From NCBI GenBank assembly GCA_024228555.1, contig JAAETI010000404.1:1-32564 (forward strand): a DNA stretch of 32,564 nucleotides. The letters are read 5' to 3'. The notes under the pieces were generated by a model. That model was not told the origin of the DNA, did no database searches, and saw only the letters and a program-made list of their open reading frames with translations. Numbering within the stretch: position 1 is the stretch's first letter; the number at the start of each line of letters is the position of its first letter. The DNA comes from a bacterium. GTDB lineage: Bacteria > Actinomycetota > Acidimicrobiia > Spongiisociales > UBA5794. Made by a program: the position numbers and the translations under genes. Below, piece by piece: positions 1,347 to 19,447 of this stretch.

Positions 1347-2630
1347 ATGAGCGACAATATTCCGGCAAGTGCTGTTGGGCTCAAGGAGGGGTCGAAAGCT
1401 AAAGCTGTCCGTCCGGTTCAGAAGTACCTCGAGACCTTCGGGTATCTCGAGAGCGACTCGAACCCGTTTGCGACCGACGAGGTCTTCATGAGACGAACGT
1501 CGGCCGACCATGTTCTCGAGGAGCAGCCCGCAGCAACGCGAGGTGAGTTGGACTCGGCGACCATCGAGGCGCTGAAGCAATTCCAGGCCGTCGCGGGTAT
1601 TCCCGCTACCGGCGAGATCGACTCTGAGACGCGGGAGGCGATGAACGCACAGCGGTGCGGTGTTCCCGATACCGCCTCGGCCCTCGGTGAGTATGTGACC
1701 GGCGCGGGGAAGTGGAGCACCAATCACCTCACCTACTCGTTCCAGAATTACACGGACGATCTGACCAGGGGTGAAATCCATTGGGCTATCGACCATGCCT
1801 TCTCGCTGTGGTCGGCTGAAACGCCGCTCCGATTCCGTCGGGTTGCAGATGGCACGTCTGGCGACATCGTGATCCGCTTTGTTACCGGCGATCACGGTGA
1901 TGGCTCGGCGTTCGACGGGCCGAGCGGGGTCCTGGCTCACGCCTTCCTACCGGTAGCTTCCGAGCCTATTCGCGGTGATAGCCACTTCGATGATGCGGAG
2001 GCATGGGTCGTTGCGATTCCGATCACATCTGGGATCGACCTCGTCACCGTCGCTGCTCATGAGTTCGGCCACGCGCTGGGGCTGCGACACTCAAGTGACA
2101 GCTCCGCCTTGATGGCCCCGTTCTATCGTGGGTGGCACCGGTATCTGAGTTCCGATGACATCCAAGGGATTCAGAGCCTCTACGGCGGACCTGGTCGACT
2201 TGAGAACGCAACGTGGATTCACGGCAACGCGGCGTTGATCGAACACGAGAATGCGGTCGACTTCGAACGGAAGTACGGCTTCTACAACCGGATCGTGGGT
2301 AAGGCCAATTCAACCAATTGGATTCACTTTGCCCTGCCGACACCGGTGATAGAGGACGGCCGGCGTCTCAGCCTGGACCGCTTCATGTTGAGGGCGGTGA
2401 CAGGTTCCAAGGCAACGCTCCGCGACGTGCACATCCGCGACGGAGAGCGCGTTGTTGCCCTGCTCAACGGTGTGAACCGTTCAGGAGTCATGCCGTTTGC
2501 GCGGTTCGGTGTGGCCTCCATGCCAGCCGTACGGTGGGGCGTGAGTGTTTCACTTGGATTCGATTTCGGCTCAGGCACCAACGGTGACCGGCGGGTCGAT
2601 CTGATCTCGGCTGGCTTCGACTACAAGTAG
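1347..2630 (+). CDS. Matrixin (MMP-like) zinc metalloprotease with cysteine switch
   Basis: A 427-residue protein with a clear AGGAGG ribosome binding site at 1335-1340. Residues about 15-100 form a peptidoglycan-binding-like helical prodomain. This is followed by RCGVPD (Cys104), the cysteine switch that keeps matrix metalloproteinases latent by binding the catalytic zinc. The catalytic domain shows the MMP structural zinc/calcium region (HGDGSAFDGPSGVLAHAF, then GDSHFDDAEAW), the zinc motif HEFGHALGLRH (His238, Glu239, His242, His248) and a Met-turn methionine at about 256. A C-terminal beta-rich domain (from about 290) starts WIHGNAALIE and looks like an accessory module found alone in other bacterial proteins. 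No signal peptide precedes the prodomain, which is odd because matrixins are usually secreted. Catalytic residues are intact, so an active, self-inhibited enzyme is expected. The substrate is unknown. The neighbouring sigma factor and protease genes suggest a shared proteolytic pathway, but that is inference. Confidence 0.88.
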   Translation: MSDNIPASAVGLKEGSKAKAVRPVQKYLETFGYLESDSNPFATDEVFMRRTSADHVLEEQPAATRGELDSATIEALKQFQAVAGIPATGEIDSETREAMNAQRCGVPDTASALGEYVTGAGKWSTNHLTYSFQNYTDDLTRGEIHWAIDHAFSLWSAETPLRFRRVADGTSGDIVIRFVTGDHGDGSAFDGPSGVLAHAFLPVASEPIRGDSHFDDAEAWVVAIPITSGIDLVTVAAHEFGHALGLRHSSDSSALMAPFYRGWHRYLSSDDIQGIQSLYGGPGRLENATWIHGNAALIEHENAVDFERKYGFYNRIVGKANSTNWIHFALPTPVIEDGRRLSLDRFMLRAVTGSKATLRDVHIRDGERVVALLNGVNRSGVMPFARFGVASMPAVRWGVSVSLGFDFGSGTNGDRRVDLISAGFDYK

Positions 2631-2644
2631 GTGGCATTCGGATT

Positions 2645-2680
2645 GGGGTGGGTTAGTGTCTAGCGACACCGACCCACCCC
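2645..2680 (+). terminator. Hairpin after the metalloprotease gene
   Basis: An inverted repeat 15 bases past the metalloprotease stop pairs GGGGTGGGT with ACCCACCCC, and GTGTC with GACAC, around a short TAGC loop. No T-tract follows, so it is a candidate intrinsic or Rho-assisted terminator. It separates this gene from the sigma factor gene. Confidence 0.6.
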
Positions 2681-2861
2681 ACTCATGCGATGGGGGGCAG
2701 ATGTCCCGGCAGAGCTTGTCGCTCAGGTCGTACCTTGCCAGGTACCGATGCGGGACGCGCTCGCCAGGCGATGGCTGCAATACACGAGGTGGTGTAGCTT
2801 GATTGAGACGAGGTTTTCGAGACCGGGTGATGGACCACGAGCCGGGGTTGAGTTCGAGCGT

Positions 2862-3389
2862 ATGGATCTGGGCGATCTCTACAAGAGGACGGTCGACGGC
2901 GACGCTGCCGCGTTCGACGAGTTGTACGTGTCGTTGAAGGATCTGGTGTGGTGGGCTATCCGCAACGGCGGGGTCACGGGCGCCGACGCCGAGGACGTCT
3001 TCCAGACGACGTGGGCAAAGTTCTTCGAGTACCTAGGTCGGCACCGCAACCCGAATGCGATCAAGGGCTGGCTGGTTGCTGTCGCTCGGAATCTCTGTAT
3101 GGACCTCGGGCGGGTCTCTGGGCGCACACAACCGATCGAACTACTGATGGAAATGGAAGCCGATGACCATCCGCCCGACGAGCTGGCGATTCGCTCTCTC
3201 GATATCGACGTTCTCGAAGAGGTGTTGTTCGAACTCTCCGAGCGGGAGCGTCAGTTGGTGGCGCTGTGGGCTCATGGGGCGTCCTACAAAGAGATGCATC
3301 TGGCGATTGGAATTCCGGCGGGCAGCGTCGGGCCGACTATGGCACGCTGTAGGGAAAAGCTCGCCGCCAAAATGAAGGAGCGCTCTTGA
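2862..3389 (+). CDS. ECF-type RNA polymerase sigma factor
   Basis: From ATG 2862 the protein is 175 residues, the usual size of an extracytoplasmic-function sigma factor. The frame stays open upstream to 2685, but that stretch is unlike protein, so the internal ATG is preferred. There is no strong ribosome binding site. Region 2 is visible as DAAAFDELYVSLKDLVWWAI then ADAEDVFQTTWAKFFEYL and IKGWLVAVARNLCMD. Region 4 is LSERERQLVALWAHGASYKEM followed by the recognition helix around IPAGSVGPTMARCREKL. It would direct RNA polymerase to an unknown set of promoters. The stop overlaps the start of the next gene (TGATG), so the two are translationally coupled. That partner lacks a membrane segment, so it is not a classical membrane-bound anti-sigma factor. 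Confidence 0.85.
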   Translation: MDLGDLYKRTVDGDAAAFDELYVSLKDLVWWAIRNGGVTGADAEDVFQTTWAKFFEYLGRHRNPNAIKGWLVAVARNLCMDLGRVSGRTQPIELLMEMEADDHPPDELAIRSLDIDVLEEVLFELSERERQLVALWAHGASYKEMHLAIGIPAGSVGPTMARCREKLAAKMKERS

Positions 3390-3829
3390 TGGGCCGGAAA
3401 GAAGAGCCATCACTCAGGGACCAGCTGCGCGACGTAGCCGGGGAAGCATTCCCGGTGCCTGAGCGGTCGGACGTCATGGCACGGGCGTTGTTTGCCCTCC
3501 AGTTTGCCGAGAAGTGGCTCGCAGAACAGGTAGAGGATGCGGGGGTCCCGATGAGGGGCGGTGCCGACCAACTGCGTCAAACCTATCGATCGACCGGCCA
3601 GAACGTCGAGATCGTTGTCGAAGGCGGTGTCGAGAGGCGAGTGACTGGAGCGGTCGAGCCGCCGGCAAAGGGCTGGGCACTCATCCGCTCCGGGAACCAC
3701 CGTGATCTAATCCGCATCGACGACAGCGGTATGTTCACATCGCTCATTCCGTCTGACGCGGGGCCCATAGATGTGGTCCTCGAGTTTGATCACGGGCTGA
3801 CGATGACTATGAAGGGCATCGGCGAGTAG
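3389..3829 (+). CDS. Small protein translationally coupled to the ECF sigma factor
   Basis: A 146-residue protein whose ATG shares its A with the TGA of the sigma gene, implying coordinated synthesis. The first 70 residues are helical and charged (SDVMARALFALQFAEKWLAEQ). The C-terminal half looks beta-rich (GWALIRSGNHRDLIRIDD, then GPIDVVLEFDHGLTMTMKG). There is no signal peptide and no membrane helix. Position and coupling suggest a regulator or partner of the sigma factor, perhaps a soluble anti-sigma factor and a possible substrate for the protease genes opposite. That is inference only; I do not recognise the family. Confidence 0.7.
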   Translation: MGRKEEPSLRDQLRDVAGEAFPVPERSDVMARALFALQFAEKWLAEQVEDAGVPMRGGADQLRQTYRSTGQNVEIVVEGGVERRVTGAVEPPAKGWALIRSGNHRDLIRIDDSGMFTSLIPSDAGPIDVVLEFDHGLTMTMKGIGE

Positions 3830-3831
3830 GA

Positions 3832-3859
3832 GGCGTGTGCGGCCGTGCGTTGTCACGCC
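3832..3859. terminator. Weak inverted repeat between convergent genes
   Basis: GGCGTG at 3832-3837 and CACGCC at 3854-3859 can pair around a 16-base loop. The element lies between the sigma-coupled gene and the convergent CHAT gene, whose stop codon it overlaps. It could serve both directions, but the stem is short and no T-tract is seen. Confidence 0.25.
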
Positions 3860-6459
3860 CCGTAGGCGTTGAACGCCGCTGCGACGAGTGCTGCGCCAGG
3901 GTCTTCAGTAAGGAGTGCCGTCGTAGTCTTCAGCAGAGCCGTTGCCGGAGGGTGGCCGTTGCGAAGCATCTCGTGAAGGACCAGCATGGCGCGCCGTGTG
4001 GGTGCGTCGGGAACGTCGACCTCTGCAGCAACGACCGTTCTGGTCCCGCCGGCCAGCACCGCGGTCGGCAGGCCGACTGACAGGCCTCCCCGATATGTTC
4101 GCGGTCGTCCGACTGAACATGCCGAGACGATGAGTTCGGCGGGCGGTGACGCGGTCTGCATGTCGTACACCGTGAATGGCCCGTCCGCCAGACCGATGCT
4201 CGACAGGATCGGGTTGTCAGTTCGCGAAATGCCGTGAGCTGCTAGGTGCATCCTCACGTCGTTGTCGATCAGGTTGAGGACGGCCTCTGCGGTGGCAGCC
4301 TCACCGACGAGTGTCTGTGCTCCAGGGTGGGCTGCGGCGAGTTCTGCCACCTCGAATGCGGCATGATCTGGTGCCGGGCCTGCGACGTACACAGTCGCAT
4401 CGGCGTCTACCCGGTCGGCGATGTCGGCGTGTGCCCACGCCGAGGCGCTTGCGTTGACCCGGATGGCATGACCCTTCAGATTGGGTAGCAGCGACCAGGG
4501 TACGCCGAAAACCCCCGGGGGAGGCACCAGGACGACGTCGCTCTCGTTGGCGGCAGAGTTGTGGAAGAGGTATTCGTCAAGCTGCGCTGCCGCACCCAAC
4601 AGCGCGTTGTGACGATGGTCCGGTTCGAGCGTCGCTAGAGCGGAGACGAGGCGCATGCGCACTTTGGCGGCCAACTCGTCGATGGTCGCGCTCGGTGCTA
4701 CCGGCGTGGCTTCAACCGACCCGCGGCTGACGTCGACCCGGGTGAGGAAGTCACCCGCTTCAATGAATACCGTCAACCGGTCATGTTTGAGGCCGTCCCT
4801 GATCTCCTCGAGTGGCACCGGCTTTGTGACCTGCGTCGACGTTGCGTCGGCGATACGGACCGCGCCACGCAATTCCGCTTCTGCGGCCGCGATGACTGCG
4901 TCATCGGCTCCACGTCGTTTCAGTAGTCGGTAGCCGGCGAGCTTCTCTGCGATGGCCGGGTCGGGGTCGAGTCGCGGAGCCGCATCGACGGCGCGCATCA
5001 GGTCCGTGAGAGTGATCATCGACTCGATGTCGTCGGTGTCAATGGCCAGGCCGAGTGCGAAGTCGGCAATCTCGGAGCCGGTGCTGCGAATTCCGACAGC
5101 CAGATCGGTGGAGCCCGCAATGGCAGCGTGGCGAGCGACACCGCGCATCTCGTCCAGGACGCGTTTGATCGCTCCGCGCGTGTCGCCGCGGGCGGCGTAG
5201 AGGCGAGCGAGCAGAGCGTGCGAACGCAGAGTGAGCTGAAGCCCGAGGTGTCGTTCGCCGCGACTCATCGACTCGGCGACGGATGAAACGGCATCGAAGT
5301 TGCCGGCCGCCAGCTCGACCTCGCCCAACAGAATCTGGGCCAGCGCCGCGCTGCGGCTGCCGTCCTGGCCTTTCGGTGGAGCGAGGGCGGTGGTGTCCAC
5401 TAGGTCGGCTGTGCCGTTTCGAACCTGTGCGTCGCTGAGCAGGACGTTCGCTGCATAGGCGAGATCTGCTGCGTCGATCTCGTTGAAGGATTCCACGGCT
5501 GCCTGCGCCGCCTCGACCGCTGAGCCAAACCTGCCTGTTGTGATGAACAGCCGGGCCAGGGCGATCTCGCAAAGCCCGTGCTCTCGCGTGGTGTGCGAGA
5601 CATCACGAGCCGCCTTGGCGTTCATGAGGGCGTCGTCCACCAACCCGGCCTGTTCATATATGTCGGCGGCGTCCAGATAGTCGTCCATTTGCATGTCATG
5701 GTCGTGCCGCGCGCTCTGGAGTGCCGTCAGCGCTTCCTTCGGCCGGCCGAGCAGCGAAAGCGCCACCGCAAGGTGATATGCCGGCTGTGACGCCGATTCC
5801 GCTGCCCCGAGCTCGAGCCACAAATCGCGACCTCGTTCGAGTTCGGGGATGGCTTCCGCGCTCCGGCCTAGCTGGACCAGGCACCAGCCTCGGTTGCTGG
5901 CGGCGCGAGCCGCCCATTGCGGTTCGCCTGCGGTCTCCAGTCTTGCGCTCAATCCCTCGAGGATCCTTGCTCCATCTGCGTATCGGGCCGAGAAGTTATA
6001 GAGCGCTCCGAGCTGAGCCTGAGCCTTGTCGCCGATGACGTTTGCCTGTCTGGCTGCGACCTCCTTGAGATGCTCTTCGGCTTCGTCGAGCCGCCCGGCT
6101 ATCGCCAGGGAACCGGACAGAGTGACAGCAATCTCATCGGCGAGTGTTGTTTCGGCGTGCGTGGTCGCAAGTCTGAGCCCCCTCGCTAGTAGCTCGACGC
6201 TGTGCTCGACATCGCCGTCGTTTCGAGCCAACAGCCCGCGCACGCGGTCCAACCATGCATGGGTCAGCGGTATGGATCCGCAGTGCGCCTCGACGTTGTC
6301 TGTAAGTCGCTGAGCTTTGTCGTCGCCCTGTGCCGCGCGATGTTCCGCCTCGTCGAGGAGGCGGGTGCATCGCGGGCAAGGGTTACTCGTCGGCGTTTTG
6401 GATCCTTTCAGGCGTACATCGCTGCAATTGCCGGCGTTGCGAACGATGTTCCGCTCCAT
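3853..6459 (-). CDS. TPR-CHAT caspase-like protease
   Basis: An 868-residue cytosolic protein from ATG 6459. The first 50 residues contain a CPRC pair. Residues about 50-500 are tandem helical repeats of tetratricopeptide type (for example GRLDEAEEHLKEVAARQ, LGRSAEAIPELERGRDLW, LGRPKEALTALQSARHD). The C-terminal ~300 residues are a CHAT domain (caspase HetF-associated with TPRs). Its catalytic His lies in HLAAHGIS (His742 by my count) and its Cys in IVSACSVG (Cys781), followed by GGLSVGLPTAVLAGGTRTVV, the usual CHAT ending. In this family the TPR region senses a partner and releases the cysteine protease. The start overlaps the upstream subtilase gene by 52 bases, and no alternative start follows soon after its stop, so coupled expression is likely. 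The gene is convergent with the sigma factor pair. Confidence 0.9.
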   Translation of the reverse strand: MERNIVRNAGNCSDVRLKGSKTPTSNPCPRCTRLLDEAEHRAAQGDDKAQRLTDNVEAHCGSIPLTHAWLDRVRGLLARNDGDVEHSVELLARGLRLATTHAETTLADEIAVTLSGSLAIAGRLDEAEEHLKEVAARQANVIGDKAQAQLGALYNFSARYADGARILEGLSARLETAGEPQWAARAASNRGWCLVQLGRSAEAIPELERGRDLWLELGAAESASQPAYHLAVALSLLGRPKEALTALQSARHDHDMQMDDYLDAADIYEQAGLVDDALMNAKAARDVSHTTREHGLCEIALARLFITTGRFGSAVEAAQAAVESFNEIDAADLAYAANVLLSDAQVRNGTADLVDTTALAPPKGQDGSRSAALAQILLGEVELAAGNFDAVSSVAESMSRGERHLGLQLTLRSHALLARLYAARGDTRGAIKRVLDEMRGVARHAAIAGSTDLAVGIRSTGSEIADFALGLAIDTDDIESMITLTDLMRAVDAAPRLDPDPAIAEKLAGYRLLKRRGADDAVIAAAEAELRGAVRIADATSTQVTKPVPLEEIRDGLKHDRLTVFIEAGDFLTRVDVSRGSVEATPVAPSATIDELAAKVRMRLVSALATLEPDHRHNALLGAAAQLDEYLFHNSAANESDVVLVPPPGVFGVPWSLLPNLKGHAIRVNASASAWAHADIADRVDADATVYVAGPAPDHAAFEVAELAAAHPGAQTLVGEAATAEAVLNLIDNDVRMHLAAHGISRTDNPILSSIGLADGPFTVYDMQTASPPAELIVSACSVGRPRTYRGGLSVGLPTAVLAGGTRTVVAAEVDVPDAPTRRAMLVLHEMLRNGHPPATALLKTTTALLTEDPGAALVAAAFNAYGA

Positions 6460-7655
6460 CGGGCGTAGCCATGCCACTTGCCCTTGGTCGTGCGCCGTCT
6501 GCTGTACATGGGTACCTCGACATAGGAGCGTGCATCTCCGCCGTCGAGATAGCAGCTCAAGATATCAACACCATTGGTGTAGACGTTGACCCATGGCCCC
6601 GAGTTGCTGAAGCCGGCGATCTGGCCGTGCTCATCGGTGGCTCCCACGCCGACCACGTCGTCGTAGGCAGCCGGGTAAAATGGGTCGTTGCGGTGAGCAT
6701 TGCCTGCGGCGGCGACGACCTTGACCCCAAGTTTGACCCACACCGACAACACCGGGCGTGTCTTCTTGAGGGGATTCATGTCGTCGGGTGTATGGGAAGG
6801 GCCCGCCAACGATAGGTTTAGGGCCCTGGGAATCTCCAGGTCGTACTCCTCAAAGCGTGAAGCTGCTTCCTCGGCAACCGTGAGCGCGTCGTCGAACCCG
6901 ATCTTGCCCTTGACCTTGAGTTCGGCCATGTGTGCAAGGGCTCGGGCGAGGACGATCGCTAGGTCCTTGTCGTCGAGGAACACTGAGTCACCTTCGTTGG
7001 TACTGTTGAGGGCCCGTGGCCGGAACACGTAGACCCTGGCGTCTGGGTTATCGATGAGGACCTTGCCTGCAACGAAGGTCCCGTGACCGATGTGCGGGGC
7101 GATCTTCTTGCCAGCGAGCTTGCCGGGCTGTTCAGGCTCGGCGTAGATCAGGCCGTTGCTGTCGTGGATGTCGCGGGTCAGCTTCCTCGGCAACACCCCG
7201 GTGTCGATTACGACGACCTTGCCTCCCTTTGCAGAAGCAGCGGTGAGTGTTGCCGTTGCCGCGTCGATCTCGGGGCTGGGTTCAATCGGCTCCGGAGCAT
7301 CGTGGGGTCCGAACTGGGTGTGGTTGCTGAGCATCAGGACGTGATGCGGGTTTGCATCAAGGCCGGCTTCGCGCAACGTATCGATCAGCTCTGGCACAGG
7401 GTGTCGCCGTGAATCGACGGGCACGGTGCTGTAGTCCGAGCCGGGGATTGGCGATGCGCCCTCTAGGACGATCAGATCCACTGTGGCGGCAGCCTCACGG
7501 AGCTGATCGGTCCTGATGACCAGTTCTCGGTCGACGTAGAAGTAGTCCTGCCCGTCGGGTCGCTCGACGGTCTTGAAGACGAGCGCTCCGTCGATCTCGC
7601 CGATTGGCTGACCGGCGCCGGGCGGGGGTGATGGTGGTGCTTGCTTGCTGCTCAT
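6408..7655 (-). CDS. Cytosolic S8 subtilisin-like serine protease
   Basis: A 415-residue protein. The start at ATG 7655 is well supported by GGGAGGA five to six bases upstream; the frame continues to 7862 but without a ribosome binding site. The catalytic triad is intact: Asp151 in VVVIDTGV, His191 in HIGHGTFVAG, Ser404 in SGTSFATPA, with oxyanion Asn319 in AAAGN. About 140 N-terminal residues precede the domain. A Pro-rich start and no signal peptide indicate an intracellular enzyme. The protein ends only 11 residues after the catalytic serine, shorter than usual for S8 peptidases. The TGA falls inside the beginning of the overlapping CHAT gene. Both genes are probably one operon, giving a serine and a cysteine protease made together. 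Confidence 0.9.
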   Translation of the reverse strand: MSSKQAPPSPPPGAGQPIGEIDGALVFKTVERPDGQDYFYVDRELVIRTDQLREAAATVDLIVLEGASPIPGSDYSTVPVDSRRHPVPELIDTLREAGLDANPHHVLMLSNHTQFGPHDAPEPIEPSPEIDAATATLTAASAKGGKVVVIDTGVLPRKLTRDIHDSNGLIYAEPEQPGKLAGKKIAPHIGHGTFVAGKVLIDNPDARVYVFRPRALNSTNEGDSVFLDDKDLAIVLARALAHMAELKVKGKIGFDDALTVAEEAASRFEEYDLEIPRALNLSLAGPSHTPDDMNPLKKTRPVLSVWVKLGVKVVAAAGNAHRNDPFYPAAYDDVVGVGATDEHGQIAGFSNSGPWVNVYTNGVDILSCYLDGGDARSYVEVPMYSRRRTTKGKWHGYARWSGTSFATPAIAAMYA

Positions 7656-7956
7656 CGTTGTCCTCCCTGGAACGTCAGATCGGCGTCCATCGCGCCGTAT
7701 CTCAGAACTGACGTACTTCGACTCCTTTTGATACGTCTCGCAGAGTCGTGCGCCCTTCAAACATACCGATTGCCGATGAGACCTGCCCAGGATTTGGTGG
7801 TGCGACCTTGGATCGGTGCAGTGTGGGTCGAGGCACTGCGGCGGATAGGGCCGGTGTATCAAGACTGCGTGATGTTCGTCTAGTCGGGATAGCGGGTCAG
7901 AGCGGTGTCAATCACGCTCCGGCGCACCCGTTCGAGCAAATGCGATAGGAGATGTC
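7656..7956. other. Intergenic region between the subtilase and a divergent small gene
   Basis: About 300 bases with no convincing gene; the reading frames through it are shadows or upstream extensions. It must contain the promoters for the subtilase-CHAT operon (leftward) and the 113-residue gene (rightward). I could not identify clear -35/-10 boxes. Confidence 0.5.
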
Positions 7957-8298
7957 ATGTCAGCTGAAGGGCTTTGGCTACTGGACTACGACTGGGAAGT
8001 CGACGGGACCAGCGAGACGATCACAATCGAATTCCGTAGCGACAACACCTACACCTTTGGGGACGGTTCCTCGGGTGATTGGGCCGAGATCGATGGCTTG
8101 ATTGTCATGAAGTATGAGGACGGCCCGTATCCCGTCTTCGCCGCCGTCCGTGTCGGAGATGCCCTAGTCGGGCTTGGAACAACCGGTGGCGGCTACAACA
8201 TGACGTGGCGGGGCAGACGTGTTCCGATGGCTGCTGCAAGCTCTGGCGGTCCTCAGAACGAAGCAGTTGCAGTGGCACGGTTCCTGGCGTCCGAGTGA
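7957..8298 (+). CDS. Small uncharacterised protein beside the protease operon
   Basis: A 113-residue protein with a good ribosome binding site (AGGAG about seven bases before the ATG). The sequence starts GLWLLDYDWEVDG, followed by FRSDNTYTFGDGSSGDWAEIDG and a Gly-rich strand region, MTWRGRRVP. The alternating pattern suggests a small beta-barrel in the style of lipocalin-like or fatty-acid-binding-like domains, but I cannot confirm that. There is no signal peptide. It is divergent from the S8-CHAT operon, so it may be co-regulated with it. Function unknown. Confidence 0.65.
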   Translation: MSAEGLWLLDYDWEVDGTSETITIEFRSDNTYTFGDGSSGDWAEIDGLIVMKYEDGPYPVFAAVRVGDALVGLGTTGGGYNMTWRGRRVPMAAASSGGPQNEAVAVARFLASE

Positions 8299-9623: not shown

Positions 9624-11090
9624 ATGAGATCCAACGATCGTCCAAACTCACCGGATGAGCTCGCAGAGCTGTTGACAACAGCTGATGAGCTGGTGTCGTA
9701 TATCGGCCACCACGAGTCTCGGCTGGTCGAGCTCAAGAAGGGTCGTTCTCCAGCTAAGACGTGCACAGCCGTCGCCGCAATGGCCAACGATGAAGCTGGG
9801 GCTGTCGGCCTCATCGCTCTGGGCGTAGCCGAGGGCGCACCTCCCGCTCTTGAGGGGCTGAAGGTTACGGACGGGGTTCTGAAGAGGGTCCGTCGCGAGA
9901 TCAGCGATTCGGTATCGCCGCCACCGACCATCCAGATCTGGACCATTGGTATCACCGACGGCACCGCGGTCCTGTGCATTGGCGTCCAGGGCGACGGCGT
10001 CCGAGTCTACGAGTACAGAGGGCAACCCTACCGCCGTGTTGGTAGTGAGAATGTGAAGATGTCCCGCAACGATGCCTTCGAGCGGCGTGTCGTCTACAGC
10101 GGGCAAGAGAGTGCTTGGGAGGGGGCGTCCTCGAATGAGCCAGCTTCATCTCTCGACCCAGCATATATCCAGAGGTTCTTGAGAGCCGCCAGGCTGAACC
10201 AAGGAGCAAGCGGCTCGGATGAAGAGGTTCTGCTCAACTACGGGATCACGACGGCTGATGGTCGCACGACTAACGCCGGGCTGGCTTTGTTCGGTCACAA
10301 GGATCGATTGGGCAGTGTGATGCCTCAGTGCCTATTTCAAGCCGGACGATTCGAGAGCGTGAGAGCGTTGCGTAATCCGGTCGATCAGGTCCAGGGGGAG
10401 ATGTGCATACTCGCTCAGTTCGACGCCGGCACCAGCTTCGTTGAACGACACCTGTCGAAGTCGCCGAGAAGCCTTCCGGACGGTACACGGGTGGATCTGC
10501 TCGAGATTCCCAACGAGTCCATTAGGGAGATATTCCTAAATGCACTGGTTCACAGAGACTATGTAGCACCAAACGGTCGGGTCGCTCTTCACGTTGGGAA
10601 TGATGAAGTCCGCATCATCTCTTCAGGCTCTATGGTGCCCGGCATCGAATACTCATTTCTCGCGGCGAAGTCCGGGGAACTTGGCTCGAAGTTTCGGAAC
10701 CCGGTGATGGGCCGGGTTCTTCACGCCATGGGCCTCGTGGAAAGATGGGGCGGAGGCATCAAGACTGCCGTCGACGCAACTCTGGCACAGTTCCTCCCTG
10801 CGCCGCGGTTCCGGCTCGGTGACGACCAAGTGTCCGTAGCCCTTGTGCGTCCCGATCGGCTGCCCGACTGGGTCGCCGATGTTGGCCTCCTGATCGATGA
10901 CCTCCTCGTCTGGGATTGCTTGGCAGCTGAGCCTCTCACAACTAGGGATTTGCGCAGGTTGACGCAGTTGACCCGGCAGCAAACGACAGAATCGATTCAA
11001 AGGCTGACTGAAGTTGGTGCCGTAGAGTTACCCGAAGGACCTTCAGGAGTGGTGCGCCGTCGAGATTGGGACGGACTCGATTTCCGCTAG
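9624..11090 (+). CDS. Schlafen AlbA_2 / RecG-C-like ATPase-fold protein
   Basis: A 488-residue protein. The N-terminal ~150 residues form an AlbA_2 (Schlafen-type, 'divergent AAA_4') domain: ESRLVELKKGRSPAK, then AVAAMANDEAGAVGLIALGV. The middle, around residues 290-390, has the conserved segment LEIPNESIREIFLNALVHRDY followed by RIISSGSMVPGI and GLVERWGGGIKTA. This is typical of the ATP-binding-like C-terminal region of so-called RecG-like transcriptional regulators. A winged-helix tail follows (TTRDLRRLTQLTRQQTTESI). Such proteins are often found in defence or accessory islands and are annotated as putative DNA-binding regulators; biochemical roles vary. Here it sits alone, convergent with the helicase gene, at the edge of a defence island. 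Regulation or nucleic-acid cleavage are both possible. Confidence 0.8.
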   Translation: MRSNDRPNSPDELAELLTTADELVSYIGHHESRLVELKKGRSPAKTCTAVAAMANDEAGAVGLIALGVAEGAPPALEGLKVTDGVLKRVRREISDSVSPPPTIQIWTIGITDGTAVLCIGVQGDGVRVYEYRGQPYRRVGSENVKMSRNDAFERRVVYSGQESAWEGASSNEPASSLDPAYIQRFLRAARLNQGASGSDEEVLLNYGITTADGRTTNAGLALFGHKDRLGSVMPQCLFQAGRFESVRALRNPVDQVQGEMCILAQFDAGTSFVERHLSKSPRSLPDGTRVDLLEIPNESIREIFLNALVHRDYVAPNGRVALHVGNDEVRIISSGSMVPGIEYSFLAAKSGELGSKFRNPVMGRVLHAMGLVERWGGGIKTAVDATLAQFLPAPRFRLGDDQVSVALVRPDRLPDWVADVGLLIDDLLVWDCLAAEPLTTRDLRRLTQLTRQQTTESIQRLTEVGAVELPEGPSGVVRRRDWDGLDFR

Positions 11091-11220: not shown

Positions 11221-13356
11221 CTAGGTGGGGACGGTCCCGTCCATCTCCCACAAATCATCGGTGACGTTCTCGAGGAATGGCGATCGCTCATCGGCGCTGG
11301 CGAGAATGAGAAGCCTCCGCATGGCCCTTGTGCAGGCTACGAACAAGAGGCGTTGCTGCCGCTGGAGGTGCTCGGTGTCCTCCGTACCCATTGAGTACCA
11401 AGGAAGTCGTCCATCCTCGGCGGCGGCCACAACCACGATCGGGAACTCGATTCCCTTTGCGGCATGCATAGTCGTCACCTTCACTCCGGGATGTGCAATG
11501 TCCAGGTTCCTGGAGCGCATTGCCTTGGCGTTGTACCGGGAGTCGACGGCGGCGACGACGTCATCGAATTCTTTGGTGGTGGGGCAGAGAACCGCGACCG
11601 AATCGGGGCCGACGCGTTCCTCTCTCATCGCCTGAGCTATGAAGCGGTTCAAAGCGGGCGCCCAGTCGTCGACGTCTCCGTACCAGTGGATTGTCGGCCA
11701 TCGGCCTCGGTAAACAGGCTCCACGGCCATAGTCTCGGAGTCGGTAGCGTCGTCGTCCGGGGCCAACTGTGCCACTGCTTCCCAGATCTCGCGAGTGGTT
11801 CGGTAGTTGCGTTTCAAGATGCTGGTCCGGCCGGTGAACTGGAGTTCGTCGGCCACGGCTCGCCATCGCATTCCTGTTCCGTAGATACTCTGGTTTGAGT
11901 CGGCGGTTATGAAGACGTTTTTGCCGCCTTTGCAGAGCTTCGAGGCGAGTCGGATCGCTACCGGTTTGAGATCTTGGGCTTCGTCGATGAAGACGTAGTC
12001 GTATTGCGGGGCGGCGCCGTCGAGGGCTGCAGCTTGTTTGGTGCTGAAGAAGCAGAGTTTCTGGGACTCGAGGGCGGGCGTCAAGAGCTCGTGGAACTGC
12101 CAGACGCCTCGGCGCTGCCGCTCGTTGAGTCCTCGGCCGCGACCCGTCCGATCCTCCTCGAGGTAACCGTCTAATGAGTCGATGCCGCGTCCGGCGATCA
12201 CCCAGTCGACTTCTTCGAGCAGGAAGGGTACATCTCGCCGATCGAAGGGGAACGACGCGTCTCGGGAACGGAGCTTCTCGAGAGCCCGCTGGGAGGCGGA
12301 TTTCACGCCGTTGTGGCTGTCGTTCACCGGGTTGAGACTGAAGCCGTTCCTGCCTGCCAGTCTTGCGGCGATCCGATCGATGGTCTCGACCTGGATGTCG
12401 GCTGTCGATCCGCCGGCGACGAGCTCGGTGAGGAGACGCTTGGAGGCTTTGATAAGGGAGTTGGTGTAGGTAGTGAGGAGGATCTTCATCTGTCCCCTCA
12501 ATCCGGGAAGCGACGCCTCGTGTTCCGCAACGATCTCTCGGATGCAGTACAGGGCTACAACAGACTTGCCCGACCCCGGTCCACCTTTGAGCATCCATGG
12601 ACCTTTGGGTTCAATACGGTGGAAGCGACGGACGAATGCCTCCTGGTCCTCGTCGAGCTTTAGAAGGAAGCTGCCGAGCGAGCGGGATTCGTCGACTGCC
12701 TCAAGAAGCTCCTCGGCCGATCGGGCGACCCGAGTCGGGGTTTGAACGATCTCGGGCAAGGCGGGAGGCCAGACGAGATTCATCACTCGTAGGAGGATGG
12801 AGTCGTCGACGGTACCCGACAATGCCAGCAGGTCCTGCTCGGTGCGAGAAGAGCACAAGGCAGCGTGATGAGCTCGTGGGATCGACCATTCGCTGAGCAG
12901 CTCTGGGGTCAATTCGATCGGCAATTCATCATCGGGCGACGCAGCGTGATCGTCCTCCGCGACGGCTGGCATCAACCAAGCAGCCGCAGTGTGTTCGGTT
13001 GTTTGCTCTTCGATCAGCTCAGGGGCCTCACGGATGATCTCGTGTGTCGGACCATCGGGCCCCAATCCGATCCGGTCGTAGATGTCCTTTCGGTCTCCAA
13101 GGGCGACCAGCGTGACGGTCCCTCTGTCTCGGTCCTTTGTGACTCTGTAGATGAGCCGGTAGCTGTCGCCGACGCGGCATCGCCACAGATCTCGATAGCC
13201 ATGGAGCTTCTTGACCTTGTTGCCGCCGGCATCCTCGGCGTGTTCGGTCAGGAACTCGAGGGTTCTGCGGAATGTGTTCTGAACTCGCCGGGGAACCCGC
13301 GTCAGGTCGACGATGAATGCTTCGTAGAAGCTGATTCCGTACGACATCTGGGCCAC
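11221..13356 (-). CDS. RelE-type toxin domain fused to UvrD/Rep superfamily I helicase
   Basis: A 711-residue protein. Residues 1-95 are RelE/ParE-like (FYEAFIVDLTRVPRRVQ, KKLHGYRDLWRCRVGDSYRL, YRVTKD, LGDRKDIYDR). A linker leads into an SF1 helicase with Walker A GGPGSGKS (258-265), Walker B FIDEAQD (Asp458-Asp462), motif III-like ADSNQSIYG, motif IV-like RNYRTT, motif V VTTMHAAKGIEFP and motif VI LFVACTRAMRRL. All helicase motifs look intact, so ATP-driven DNA translocation is expected. The RelE-like part may bind nucleic acid or ribosomes, or may be a degenerate toxin. No separate antitoxin gene is adjacent. The dual-OB-like gene lies 72 bases upstream on the same strand, so it is probably the last gene of a four-gene operon with the DUF488 pair. 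Confidence 0.88.
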   Translation of the reverse strand: MAQMSYGISFYEAFIVDLTRVPRRVQNTFRRTLEFLTEHAEDAGGNKVKKLHGYRDLWRCRVGDSYRLIYRVTKDRDRGTVTLVALGDRKDIYDRIGLGPDGPTHEIIREAPELIEEQTTEHTAAAWLMPAVAEDDHAASPDDELPIELTPELLSEWSIPRAHHAALCSSRTEQDLLALSGTVDDSILLRVMNLVWPPALPEIVQTPTRVARSAEELLEAVDESRSLGSFLLKLDEDQEAFVRRFHRIEPKGPWMLKGGPGSGKSVVALYCIREIVAEHEASLPGLRGQMKILLTTYTNSLIKASKRLLTELVAGGSTADIQVETIDRIAARLAGRNGFSLNPVNDSHNGVKSASQRALEKLRSRDASFPFDRRDVPFLLEEVDWVIAGRGIDSLDGYLEEDRTGRGRGLNERQRRGVWQFHELLTPALESQKLCFFSTKQAAALDGAAPQYDYVFIDEAQDLKPVAIRLASKLCKGGKNVFITADSNQSIYGTGMRWRAVADELQFTGRTSILKRNYRTTREIWEAVAQLAPDDDATDSETMAVEPVYRGRWPTIHWYGDVDDWAPALNRFIAQAMREERVGPDSVAVLCPTTKEFDDVVAAVDSRYNAKAMRSRNLDIAHPGVKVTTMHAAKGIEFPIVVVAAAEDGRLPWYSMGTEDTEHLQRQQRLLFVACTRAMRRLLILASADERSPFLENVTDDLWEMDGTVPT

Positions 13357-15356: not shown

Positions 15357-16442
15357 ATGGTACTGATGCGGATGATCGACCTCTTCGCAGGCTGCGGAGG
15401 GATGACCAAGGGATTTGAGGACGAAGGGTTCGTCCCCGCGTTCGCCGTGGAATGGGAGCGACGGGCGGCGGCCACCTATGAAGAGAATTTCGGGCCCCAC
15501 GTTGTGGCGGCGGACATCACAGAGATTCCCGATTCCGAGTTCCCGGCCGCCGACGTAGTCGTCGGAGGGCCCCCGTGCCAAGGGTTCTCCCAGTTGGGGA
15601 CACGGGATCCCGACGATCCGCGCAACAGCCTGTGGGCCGAGTACGCACGGGTTGTAGCGCATGTGCAACCGAGTGTCTTTGTGCTTGAGAATGTCCCACA
15701 GTTCCTCAAGTCCGGCCAATACGGGCTGATGGAGGACTGGACCAACAACGACGGCCCACTTGCCGGATATGAGCTCGTCTCCGGGGTGCTGAACGCCGCC
15801 GACTACGGGGTGCCTCAACGCCGCAAGCGGGCCATCCTTATCGGCTCTCGTGTAGGCACTCCGTCTCTGCCCGAGGCGACGCACGGCGACCAGTTGGGTC
15901 GGGAGCCGTGGCTAGGGCTGCGGGAGGCATTTGCCGGAATTCCATTCACAGCCGGGCCATCGACTCTTCCCGATCGATCACGAGACGATGGTATTGCCGG
16001 GCCGTTCAAGGCCGAAGAGCTGCATCTGTCTCGCAATCCCAAAGAGATCAGCCTGCTGCGCTACGACGCCGTCCCCCCAGGCGGCGGCCGCTTCGACTTG
16101 CCAGAGGAGTTGTTGCCCGCATGCTGGGCGAACAAGCCCACCGGAACGACCGACGTAATGGGGCGGCTCGAATGGGATCGGCCAGCATTGACCATCCGAA
16201 CCGAGTTCTACAAGCCGGAAAAGGGTCGCTATCTGCATCCGCAATACGACGTTGCGAATCCAGATGACCGCGTCAACCGACCGATCACGCACTGGGAAGC
16301 GGCCCGAATTCAAACTTTCCCGGACGACTTCAAGTGGTGCGGGACGAAGATTGAGATCGCACGCCAGATCGGCAACGCCGTACCGCCTCTCCTTGCCAGG
16401 GTGATAGCCCGGCATCTTCGAGACACGCTGCTCGACGCCTGA
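15357..16442 (+). CDS. DNA (cytosine-5-) methyltransferase, NaeI-type system
   Basis: A 361-residue C5-cytosine methyltransferase that transfers a methyl group from S-adenosylmethionine to cytosine. Visible motifs are I (DLFAGCGGMTKGF), IV with catalytic Cys74 (GGPPCQGFSQLG), VI (FVLENVPQF), VIII (PQRRKRAILIG) and X (QIGNAVPPLLARVIA). The variable target-recognition region lies between about 220 and 300. Three closely spaced ATGs (15357, 15366, 15372) are possible starts and none has a clear ribosome binding site. The convergent neighbour is a NaeI-like endonuclease, so the enzyme most likely protects GCCGGC, the NaeI target, if specificity is conserved; that is inference. It may also need to be expressed before the endonuclease on entry into a new host. 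Confidence 0.92.
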   Translation: MVLMRMIDLFAGCGGMTKGFEDEGFVPAFAVEWERRAAATYEENFGPHVVAADITEIPDSEFPAADVVVGGPPCQGFSQLGTRDPDDPRNSLWAEYARVVAHVQPSVFVLENVPQFLKSGQYGLMEDWTNNDGPLAGYELVSGVLNAADYGVPQRRKRAILIGSRVGTPSLPEATHGDQLGREPWLGLREAFAGIPFTAGPSTLPDRSRDDGIAGPFKAEELHLSRNPKEISLLRYDAVPPGGGRFDLPEELLPACWANKPTGTTDVMGRLEWDRPALTIRTEFYKPEKGRYLHPQYDVANPDDRVNRPITHWEAARIQTFPDDFKWCGTKIEIARQIGNAVPPLLARVIARHLRDTLLDA

Positions 16443-16460
16443 GGCCGTGGCCAGGAACGC

Positions 16461-17390
16461 CTACTGGCGAGGAAGCAACGGCGCGGGAACGGTCGACGGG
16501 TCGTCTGGATGCGCAACCCTCCACCATGACCCGTCGATACTGGCGGTACGACTCTGTCCTTCGGTAGCGGCGATCAATCCTGAACTGACGAATTCGCCCT
16601 CACTCGGGATAGGCAGTCCAAGCTGCCGCGCTAGGGACTGATGCGATGTGTAATCGCCGAGTATCACTATTCCCTCTTCCCGCAGATATGAGCGTGCGCC
16701 CCCATTCCCTCGAACCCGCTTCATGTAGTCCACTTGCTGAGCCACCGTCGCGACGGCAGACCGCCCGATGGGGACGCCGCGTGCCTTTCTAAACAGCTCA
16801 TTGATGCGTTGCTGGCCCTTCCGTGGCCCGGAAAGGCTCACGAACAGGGTTTCGAGGAGGTCGGGATCCAAATGAAGTAGCGCGTTGGACGGGAAGCCGA
16901 CCTGGCTCCATAGCCATCGGATCTTTTGCCGGCCTGCTGCGGTCAGGGACCTCTTCATGTCTCGATTCGGTCTACCCAGCAGATCTGCCTCGCATCTGAC
17001 AACGCCCGCGGACCACCTTGACGTGTTCTCGTCTGCTGTGACGAGGAGACAAAGCTCATTGTGTGCTTCCGGAGGGATCATCCAGCGCCCGGCCGACTGG
17101 GAGTACTTGCAGTCGACATCGATGTCTGTGATCTTGAAGTCCATTCGATCGCCGTCGTCGAACCGAAATTCTCGCTGGAGGTTGATCTCGAACACAGAGC
17201 CGAAGTGGGTCTTCTCAGTCTTTCTCAGTTGATCCCACCGATAGCGACCTGTGTGCTGGCCGTCGTAGATCTGATCGAACGACTGTCGAAGAACCCTCGC
17301 TAGTCGGTCCTGAGCCTTTCGGGCGGAGGTCAGGTAGTTGGCAACGGCCTCGAGTTCAGTATCAATCGAGATGGGAGGTCCGGGGGTCAC
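16461..17390 (-). CDS. Type II restriction endonuclease of the NaeI family
   Basis: A 309-residue protein from GTG 17390, close to the 317 residues of NaeI. The endonuclease domain shows DGQHTGRYRWDQLRKTEKTH and the catalytic set Asp84 in GDRMDF, then Asp93 and Lys95 in DVDCKYS, equivalent by my alignment to the NaeI metal-binding D...DxK. The C-terminal half matches the NaeI Topo/CAP-like DNA-binding domain (VATVAQQVDYMKRVRGNGGAR, EGIVILGDYTSH, ARQLGLPIP). NaeI cleaves GCCGGC and needs two copies of its site, one acting as effector. All key residues appear intact. The gene is convergent with the methyltransferase (19 bases between stops) and divergent from the glycosylase gene 42 bases away. 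Confidence 0.9.
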   Translation of the reverse strand: MTPGPPISIDTELEAVANYLTSARKAQDRLARVLRQSFDQIYDGQHTGRYRWDQLRKTEKTHFGSVFEINLQREFRFDDGDRMDFKITDIDVDCKYSQSAGRWMIPPEAHNELCLLVTADENTSRWSAGVVRCEADLLGRPNRDMKRSLTAAGRQKIRWLWSQVGFPSNALLHLDPDLLETLFVSLSGPRKGQQRINELFRKARGVPIGRSAVATVAQQVDYMKRVRGNGGARSYLREEGIVILGDYTSHQSLARQLGLPIPSEGEFVSSGLIAATEGQSRTASIDGSWWRVAHPDDPSTVPAPLLPRQ

Positions 17391-18085: not shown

Positions 18086-19447
18086 TCAGTCTTCGCTCGG
18101 AACGATCAGGCGTAGATAGGCCAGGAATGTGGTCAACCGTTTCAGATCCTGATCCGCCACCGGATCGGGGCTGAAGTGCATTATGCCGTTGCGAATCAGC
18201 CGAACCTCGTCCAATGACTGGTGGAAGGCGACTCGGTCGGCGGGCCATCCCATCTGGTCCCATGCAGATGGACTCTCCAGAACTCTCTCGATTTCACCAA
18301 GCGTCAGGGAGTGGGCGCCTTCGACTTCGCGATCGGCATCATCCGGGACAAGGTACTCGAGAAGCTCGTCGGGGGTGAAAGCCTCATCAAGGCAGACGCG
18401 GAGCCATTGCTCAATCTCTCCGACCAGCAGGAAGGGACGGGCGAGACCGGCAAACTGGTCACTCAAGTCGGCGGTCGTCACGATGCCGGTGATCGTGTTG
18501 TGCGCTCCTTTTACGAATACGAAGCCGGCCTCCACAATCGACGGGACGATATCAAGAAGCGGGTCGTCGCCCTTCACGACAGGAGGTTCCACATCCATAC
18601 AGAGAGATAGGTCCGCGTCTGGATTCTGGATCCGCGCTTTCGCAATCGATTCCCACGAAACCGCTCCCTTGAGTTGATGCTCGGTCTTCATTACCGCCAG
18701 CTGCGAGTAGTCATTGATCTGCATGATTGTCTGGGCTCGCAGCAGATCATCTGCGGGACCGACTGCCTCGACACCACCGGTTGCCGATGCTAGATGGCCG
18801 ACGACCAGCGTTACGGGCTCGGTAGCGCTTTCGGCTGGGATGTCACCTGGTTCGGTTGAGCCGTGACTAGAAGCAAGCTCGATCGTCACTATCTGATCGA
18901 TCCCGCCTACGGTGAAGTCCGGAACGGTTACCAGGCCAGCCTCTGTCAGCGTGGCTTGAATCCGCTTGTTCGAGGATGACCAACGGCGGTTTATGCCCCA
19001 ATTGGTCAAGAGGGTTCGAACCGGTATCTGATGCGGGCTGCCGGATTGTGCCGCGGCCTTCCATTGAGATACAAGGGCTTGAGCGGGTTCCCTCTGCGCA
19101 TACGCGGCATGACGCGCAGTCTGGAGAGCCTTGTGAGCCTCCTCGTCCGGTAGTTGGAGGAATGTGCGACCGGTGTCCGTGAGCGCCCAGACACCGTGCG
19201 AGACGCTCTCTAGGGCGCGTACCCGTCTCAGCAACGTACGGGCCCATGCGATCCGCTGAAGAATCTTCGGACCCTTCTGTGTCGAGTTGGGGGGAAACTC
19301 GATTGCAAGCTGCTCTTCAGTTATTCCGGCGATCTCGATCGCCGCATCATCGATATCGGTGTAGTGGCCCTTGCCTCCGATACGGTCCGCTGCCTTGAGA
19401 GTCGGAAGCATGAGGTCGGGCTGAGTAGGAAGCTGCGGTTCTGTCAT
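18086..19447 (-). CDS. Winged-helix / CBS / HEPN multidomain protein, probable abortive-infection effector
   Basis: A 453-residue protein with a composite architecture. Residues 10-100 resemble the Mrr N-terminal winged helix (LPTLKAADRIGGKGHYTDIDD, ILQRIAWARTLLRRVRAL, GVWALTDTGR). Residues 140-185 are a second small module (VRTLLTNWGINRR, LTEAGLVTVPDF) of a type I associate with CBS-containing defence proteins. Residues 230-335 are two CBS-like repeats (QINDYSQLAVMK, VFVKGAHNTITGIVTTADL), which usually bind adenine nucleotides. Residues 340-450 are helical and contain RNGIMH (Arg419 to His424), the R-x4-6-H motif of HEPN ribonucleases. A nucleotide-sensing, RNA-cleaving abortive-infection role is a reasonable inference. 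It is convergent with the glycosylase gene, five bases away, on the outer side of the NaeI-type locus. The HEPN motif is the strongest single clue; the other domain calls are less certain. Confidence 0.7.
   Translation of the reverse strand: MTEPQLPTQPDLMLPTLKAADRIGGKGHYTDIDDAAIEIAGITEEQLAIEFPPNSTQKGPKILQRIAWARTLLRRVRALESVSHGVWALTDTGRTFLQLPDEEAHKALQTARHAAYAQREPAQALVSQWKAAAQSGSPHQIPVRTLLTNWGINRRWSSSNKRIQATLTEAGLVTVPDFTVGGIDQIVTIELASSHGSTEPGDIPAESATEPVTLVVGHLASATGGVEAVGPADDLLRAQTIMQINDYSQLAVMKTEHQLKGAVSWESIAKARIQNPDADLSLCMDVEPPVVKGDDPLLDIVPSIVEAGFVFVKGAHNTITGIVTTADLSDQFAGLARPFLLVGEIEQWLRVCLDEAFTPDELLEYLVPDDADREVEGAHSLTLGEIERVLESPSAWDQMGWPADRVAFHQSLDEVRLIRNGIMHFSPDPVADQDLKRLTTFLAYLRLIVPSED

Follow-up and report, generated by a model that had tools for sequence, protein, structure and literature searches.

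Extracytoplasmic function (ECF) sigma factors of group ECF54 (Huang et al. 2015; Casas-Pastor et al. 2021, both as cited in PMC8999054) have, in that review's account of the group, carboxypeptidase, subtilase and CHAT proteins in their conserved context, a model member from Geodermatophilus, and a proposed mode of proteolytic control without an anti-sigma factor. Experimental precedent for control through an inhibitor comes from CRISPR systems: in Craspase the TPR-CHAT protein Csx29 cuts the ECF sigma factor inhibitor Csx30 (PMC10028731), and in CalpL/CalpT/CalpS a protease cuts an anti-sigma factor, which frees an ECF sigma factor (PMC11417357). Here we analyse positions 1 to 32,564 of contig JAAETI010000404.1 (assembly GCA_024228555.1, class Acidimicrobiia; this whole stretch of 32,564 nucleotides is called the window), in which an ECF sigma factor (SIG), a protein of 146 amino acids (aa; SMALL), a TPR-CHAT protease (CHAT) and a subtilase (S8) probably make up an ECF54-type switch in which proteases control a sigma factor.

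Like the ECF54 sigma factors, SIG is an actinobacterial ECF sigma factor with regions 2 and 4 only, and the subtilase, CHAT and carboxypeptidase-type neighbours reported in the review for that group match those of the window, an assignment made by described neighbourhood. A Geodermatophilus locus (L086) lies within our set of module loci. Since all three described neighbours match, the published "carboxypeptidase" is most likely SMALL. The gene association itself is not new, having been reported for ECF54 in that account (PMC8999054); what is new relative to ECF54 is a conserved arginine site in a linker of SMALL, the layout of the module as two gene pairs, and a promoter.

Craspase (type III-E: Cas7-11-Csx29, Csx30 and CASP-sigma) resembles the module in its protease: the CHAT-domain profile of the module matches the Craspase TPR-CHAT chains at E 2e-08. 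Unlike Craspase, the window holds no CRISPR array: a search of the window for a CRISPR-like repeat array found none, in line with the earlier note on this DNA, and no gRAMP/Cas7-11 was seen among the part of the window's open reading frames (ORFs) that was scanned with Pfam. No PDB chain named Csx30 matches SMALL in sequence, the Craspase cut falls in a loop around Met427 whereas the site proposed here is an Arg in an interdomain linker, and a subtilase accompanies the window module. CalpL/CalpT/CalpS, from type III CRISPR, differs in its protease, a Lon-SAVED protein activated by cyclic tetra-adenylate, whereas the window encodes CHAT, S8 and M10 proteases and is free of CRISPR arrays. The EACC2/TRADD-N caspase systems with an ECF sigma factor have other domains (EACC2, DUF1822) than the module, and their description in PMC8195603, as far as it covers them, includes neither SMALL nor S8. 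By analogy, the module would be a CRISPR-free counterpart of Craspase and CalpL/CalpT/CalpS and not a member of either, with an inhibitor that appears unrelated in sequence. Its genes and key codons lie in the window as follows.

2862-3389, plus strand: SIG, ECF sigma factor with regions 2 and 4 (Sigma70_r2 E 3.4e-07; TIGR02937 E 2.7e-19)
3389-3829, plus strand: SMALL, 146 aa, proposed anti-sigma factor; its ATG overlaps the SIG stop
3554-3556, plus strand: codon of SMALL Arg56 (R60 in the numbering of the L012 homologue), proposed CHAT cleavage site (P1), from the conservation of the Arg column
3853-6459, minus strand: CHAT, TPR-CHAT caspase-like protease (CHAT E 2.5e-17; TPR_12 E 9.1e-13)
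4117-4119, minus strand: codon of the CHAT catalytic Cys781 (Cys in 72/72 homologues)
4234-4236, minus strand: codon of the CHAT catalytic His742 (His in 72/72 homologues)
6408-7655, minus strand: S8, subtilase with N-terminal extension, cytoplasmic-type (Peptidase_S8 E 4.9e-19)

The five genes that the earlier note had read here (a matrixin, the ECF sigma factor, the small protein, TPR-CHAT and S8) are all present, and the length it gave for SMALL is right. Its statement that the catalytic residues are intact was also borne out for CHAT and S8: the CHAT dyad His742/Cys781 sits after the TPR repeats in a domain that qualifies as PF12770, and the S8 residues Asp151/His191/Asn319/Ser404 (an Asp/His/Ser triad with Asn) are all present in a PF00082 domain; the catalytic columns of each protein are invariant or nearly so among 72 homologues. 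The sigma factor most likely starts at the ATG at 2862 and not at 2685, giving a protein of 175 aa. The most likely starts of S8 and CHAT are at 7655 and 6459, and these two genes overlap by about 50 nucleotides. The SIG TGA stop and the SMALL ATG share the sequence TGATG (3387-3391), so that the translational coupling named in the note is plausible. No signal peptide or membrane segment is evident in S8, and no hydrophobic segment was found across 73 homologues. In the S8 proteins of L012 (13413-15047) and L031 (6113-7624), tandem aromatic repeats (FGNPSFFGNPSF.., YLGNPVYLGNP..) lie between the N-terminal part and the catalytic domain.

To follow these genes across genomes, 198 genomes of the class were searched with SMALL alone. 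There were matches in 7: in 6 of these SIG, CHAT and S8 adjoin SMALL, and the seventh match sits at the edge of a contig with CHAT and S8 as neighbours; the association exceeds chance. The window's own genome carries three copies of the module (contigs C404, C554 and C90). A scan of GTDB genomes with the SMALL alignment then gave 80 loci across Actinomycetota, 64 of them with at least 5.5 kb on either side. In this full-flank set, which was found through SMALL and includes a few near-duplicate records, SIG is present in 63 loci, CHAT in 60 and S8 in 57, with all four in 57 and a span of about 5 kb, which answers the co-occurrence check that the earlier note had suggested. Across these 5 kb at least 12 arrangements of gene order and orientation occur. 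Such variety speaks for selection that keeps the genes together and against the simple inheritance of a single operon. The SIG and SMALL genes frequently overlap, often as ATGA, and in a few loci they converge. Searching the class with SIG returned 26 places at 140 bits or more, one partial match at 120 and the rest at 105 bits or less; SMALL adjoins SIG at 23 of these 26 ECF54-like sites, the other three being G162 (a contig end), G196:C218 (no recognisable SMALL) and G142, where a divergent SMALL-like ORF that lacks the Arg comes after SIG. The window SIG is 68% identical to its L010 homologue, and in a phylum sample of 396 genomes, 63 carry the module's sigma factor. SIG, SMALL, CHAT and S8 form one conserved module. 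Of the larger protease-sigma block in the earlier note, these four genes stand as a conserved and repeatedly reshuffled association, whereas the matrixin drops out: it was rejected as a module member with a homologue near only 1 of 125 related loci (L068).

The module can come apart along one line. A few loci have SIG and SMALL with neither CHAT nor S8 nearby, a separation that the earlier note would have held against its circuit; in seven such cases (L021, L025, L028, L029, L095, L096 and genome G066) the genome encodes this kind of CHAT at another place, with S8 adjoining it. The module is thus made up of a SIG-SMALL pair and a CHAT-S8 pair. In three genomes (G173, G206 and G207) SIG-SMALL-CHAT, or SMALL-CHAT, occurs while a related S8 is missing from the whole genome. 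S8 is therefore accessory, and since it is dispensable, CHAT is likelier to be the direct protease. No locus with S8, without CHAT and with complete flanks was found among the loci from the SMALL scan.

In an alignment of 101 SMALL proteins, R60 (window R56) is Arg in 96/101 (entropy 0.30 bit); at the other linker positions from 52 to 65 the entropy is 2.5-3.4 bits, apart from V59 at 1.9. In the AlphaFold2 model of the L012 homologue, residues 54-60 have predicted local distance difference test (pLDDT) values below 50 and are predicted to be disordered. A further phylum-wide sample gave Arg in 49/49 recognisable SMALLs, strongly diverged ones included. Among 142 linkers of CHAT-positive systems, 140 have the motif [VIMALT]R[GSATD], which after shuffling is present in 48.5 on average and in at most 67. 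The motif of the proposed cut is A-G-V-R/G,S,A. A lone invariant residue in a free, disordered linker looks like a protease site. Because the systems that have CHAT and lack S8 keep this Arg, it points to CHAT as the cutter in preference to S8, and we infer that CHAT cuts SMALL after the linker Arg and so frees the sigma factor.

The distribution of CHAT fits this proposal. SMALL-like proteins without the Arg come from genomes G032, G096, G114 and G142, none of which yielded a CHAT of the module's kind; G096 has two copies, one of them ambiguous, with an Arg four residues off. In the phylum sample, SMALL was recognisable beside SIG in 48/58 loci of CHAT-positive genomes and in 1/10 of CHAT-negative ones, so that loss of the Arg, or of a recognisable SMALL, is mostly seen where such a CHAT is missing. 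A raw Fisher test of CHAT against Arg (142/0 against 2/4) gives p 8e-7 on related sequences; on the tree, Arg was lost about 2 times and CHAT about 4 times. Because of this relatedness and the roughly two losses of Arg, the correlation is suggestive only.

As for the rest of SMALL, the AlphaFold2 model of the L012 homologue has a helical hairpin (3-53) joined through a linker to a beta-sandwich of eight strands (66-149). Of the first eight SMALL members, four match the carboxypeptidase regulatory-like domain PF13620, no peptidase signature was found in SMALL, and the protein is most likely, from these matches, a carboxypeptidase-regulatory-like beta-sandwich protein and not an enzyme. A fold search, in which the helical part was barely tested, returned only common Ig/FN3-like beta-sandwiches (best Z 9.9), and no anti-sigma, Csx30 or CalpT entry was in its list. 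In diverged SMALLs the N-terminal segment is weakly zf-HC2-like (E 0.04-0.09), zf-HC2 being a domain common in anti-sigma factors; a zf-HC2 search of the window's own genome gave so few anti-sigma proteins that comparing profiles was of little use. The sole candidate for a natural SIG-SMALL fusion (L061) looks like a frameshifted assembly and was rejected. Three distant relatives of SIG (L258, L260 and L261), in genomes without CHAT, are followed by a protein of 84-85 aa that lacks the beta-sandwich and the linker Arg, possibly a simpler partner of the sigma factor.

A shared upstream element, GTATCA-N15-GCTC(C/T), was found as an over-represented gapped word pair and then cast as a weight matrix, which was trained on part of the sites counted here. 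At a score of 14 it lies upstream of SIG in 26/85 cases, of S8 in 16/73 and of SMALL in 8/88, against 0.3, 0 and 0.3 in shuffled sequence, and at this score it was not found before CHAT. The element spans Saccharothrix, Nocardioides, Lentzea, Planobispora and members of Acidimicrobiia, and the fetched loci hold 93 strong sites against none in 40 shuffled loci. The window has exactly two copies of a subclade form, GTATCAA-N14-CGTC, where shuffles give an expectation of 0.00, the pattern having been adjusted after the window sites were seen:

7710-7734, minus strand: promoter-like element GTATCAA-N14-CGTC, about 55 bp upstream of S8 (exact match, 0.00 expected)
7856-7880, plus strand: promoter-like element GTATCAA-N14-CGTC, 77 bp upstream of the 113-aa gene (exact match, 0.00 expected)
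7957-8298, plus strand: 113-aa protein, candidate SIG target gene, with the promoter-like element upstream

The 113-aa protein has no Pfam match, and no homologue of it was found near 125 related loci. The near relative L011 has the same subclade element about 50 bp before S8, and a weaker form stands before the window matrixin (1290-1314). A genome-wide scan found the motif at background, with no excess; about 22 of 99 hits in ECF54-positive genomes fall within some 15 kb of the SIG gene, about 1% of the sequence. This clustering near the module on a genome-wide background makes the regulon look small and local, comprising SIG, SMALL, S8 and a few neighbours.

Two further groups of loci carry SIG-type promoters. 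Four loci with no CHAT nearby (L098, L099, L104 and L110) have them before exopolysaccharide-type genes (UDP-glucose dehydrogenase, Wzz-like, glycosyltransferase), which were assigned partly by Pfam and otherwise by reading the sequence. In L063, L069, L077 and L079, large LuxR-type AAA ATPase regulators of about 890 aa lie near the module with a strong promoter of this type.

We propose that at rest SMALL, co-produced with SIG, would hold the sigma factor through its N-terminal helical part. A signal sensed by the TPR repeats would activate CHAT, which would cut SMALL after the linker Arg, as the conservation of that residue suggests, and so split the sigma-binding half from the beta-sandwich. 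The cut inhibitor would fail and SIG would be freed to transcribe from GTATCA-N15-GCTC promoters (CGTC in the window subclade), its likely targets being its own gene, SMALL (a negative feedback), S8 and a few neighbouring genes. S8 would be an accessory protease, likely downstream or amplifying, given the promoter before its gene and its absence from some lineages in which the other three genes remain.

Several observations weigh against this proposal. In genomes G123 and G449 the Arg is present but a CHAT was not detected, which may reflect assembly gaps or recent losses. An independent-pairs test of CHAT against Arg had no power, with too few events, and the correlation is not significant once relatedness is taken into account; for diverged SMALLs, hmmalign may also draw a nearby Arg into the column. 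The SMALL profile has no sequence match among PDB chains and met no known anti-sigma structure. An AlphaFold2 model of a SIG-stop-SMALL read-through (L038, with the TGA read as Gly; predicted template modelling score 0.45) folds both domains and yields no evidence of an interface. Lastly, no consensus-type element was found upstream of the window SIG.

The published view of ECF54 is also conceivable, though we think it unlikely: there would be no anti-sigma factor at all, and the sigma factor itself would be broken down by the proteases and so kept low until a signal halts them, with SMALL an adaptor or an unrelated regulator. The review's text, which lists ECF54 under proteolysis without an anti-sigma factor (PMC8999054), speaks for this, as do some second-copy SIG genes with no recognisable SMALL beside them. 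Yet SMALL is the most constant neighbour of SIG, often overlaps it and stays when CHAT and S8 move away, it is SMALL that carries the conserved isolated Arg, it sometimes has a SIG-type promoter of its own, as expected of a feedback inhibitor, and in its diverged forms the weak zf-HC2 resemblance of the N-terminus fits an anti-sigma factor.

Within the proposal that SMALL is the inhibitor, the Arg could be structural or contact the sigma factor, with cleavage elsewhere or absent. Invariant residues usually serve binding, and the linker could fold on the sigma factor. We hold this to be improbable as well, as the Arg lies in a variable stretch of low pLDDT in SMALL alone, the linker is of low confidence in the SIG-SMALL read-through model too, and the Arg persists in diverged SMALLs with a quite different N-terminal domain. 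Rather doubtful is a two-step cascade in which CHAT activates S8 and S8 cuts SMALL. Such cascades are known in anti-sigma control, as for RseA (PMC10028731), and S8 is near CHAT in 57/64 loci; the Arg-bearing SIG-SMALL-CHAT loci in the three genomes that lack a related S8 argue for CHAT as the cutter, as does the want of any complete-flank locus with S8 and without CHAT, and the SIG-type promoter before S8 suits a downstream role. That chance alone brought these proteases and a sigma factor together in one block, as the non-conserved matrixin might suggest, has next to no likelihood and is refuted for the four-gene core by a co-occurrence kept across Actinomycetota in many gene orders.

The remaining gene of the block in the window is the matrixin.

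1347-2630, plus strand: M10 matrixin (Pfam E 3.5e-53), with an N-terminal peptidoglycan-binding domain and a C-terminal DUF6623

Its homologue at L068 (11428-12213), of 41% identity, belongs to Nonomuraea endophytica and is next to a doubled module. Elsewhere in the window, a C5 cytosine methylase stands beside a NaeI restriction endonuclease (E 9e-106; 15357-17390), and near these restriction-modification genes are AlbA_2/Schlafen-type (9624-11090), UvrD-like (11224-13356) and Mrr_N (18089-19447) genes. Such surroundings would fit a role in defence and have the flavour of a defence island. At 198-272, five units of a tandem 15-nucleotide repeat, GCAACACCGAAGAAC, lie in an ORF and encode a short repeated peptide. 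Downstream of the C90 module (L016, 4014-6185) are a promoter-bearing protein of 303 aa without a Pfam match, an FHA-like protein, and proteins with repeated GSGxQQxAGRDI motifs, which presumably resemble amyloid-type signalling motifs.

CHAT proteases are common in bacteria and, to our knowledge, few of their substrates are known; for this module a CHAT substrate, a cut site and an output promoter are proposed together. If the proposal is true, ECF54 would gain a mechanism and the misleading "carboxypeptidase" label would be replaced. It may well be, and we put this no higher than an open balance, that actinobacteria widely use a CRISPR-free switch in which a TPR-CHAT protease cuts a two-domain anti-sigma factor at one Arg and frees an ECF sigma factor for its own cassette, and that CRISPR type III-E either branched off as a specialised form from a CHAT-sigma design that is much more widespread, or runs parallel to it. 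The release of a sigma factor by a TPR-CHAT protease would then not be peculiar to CRISPR.

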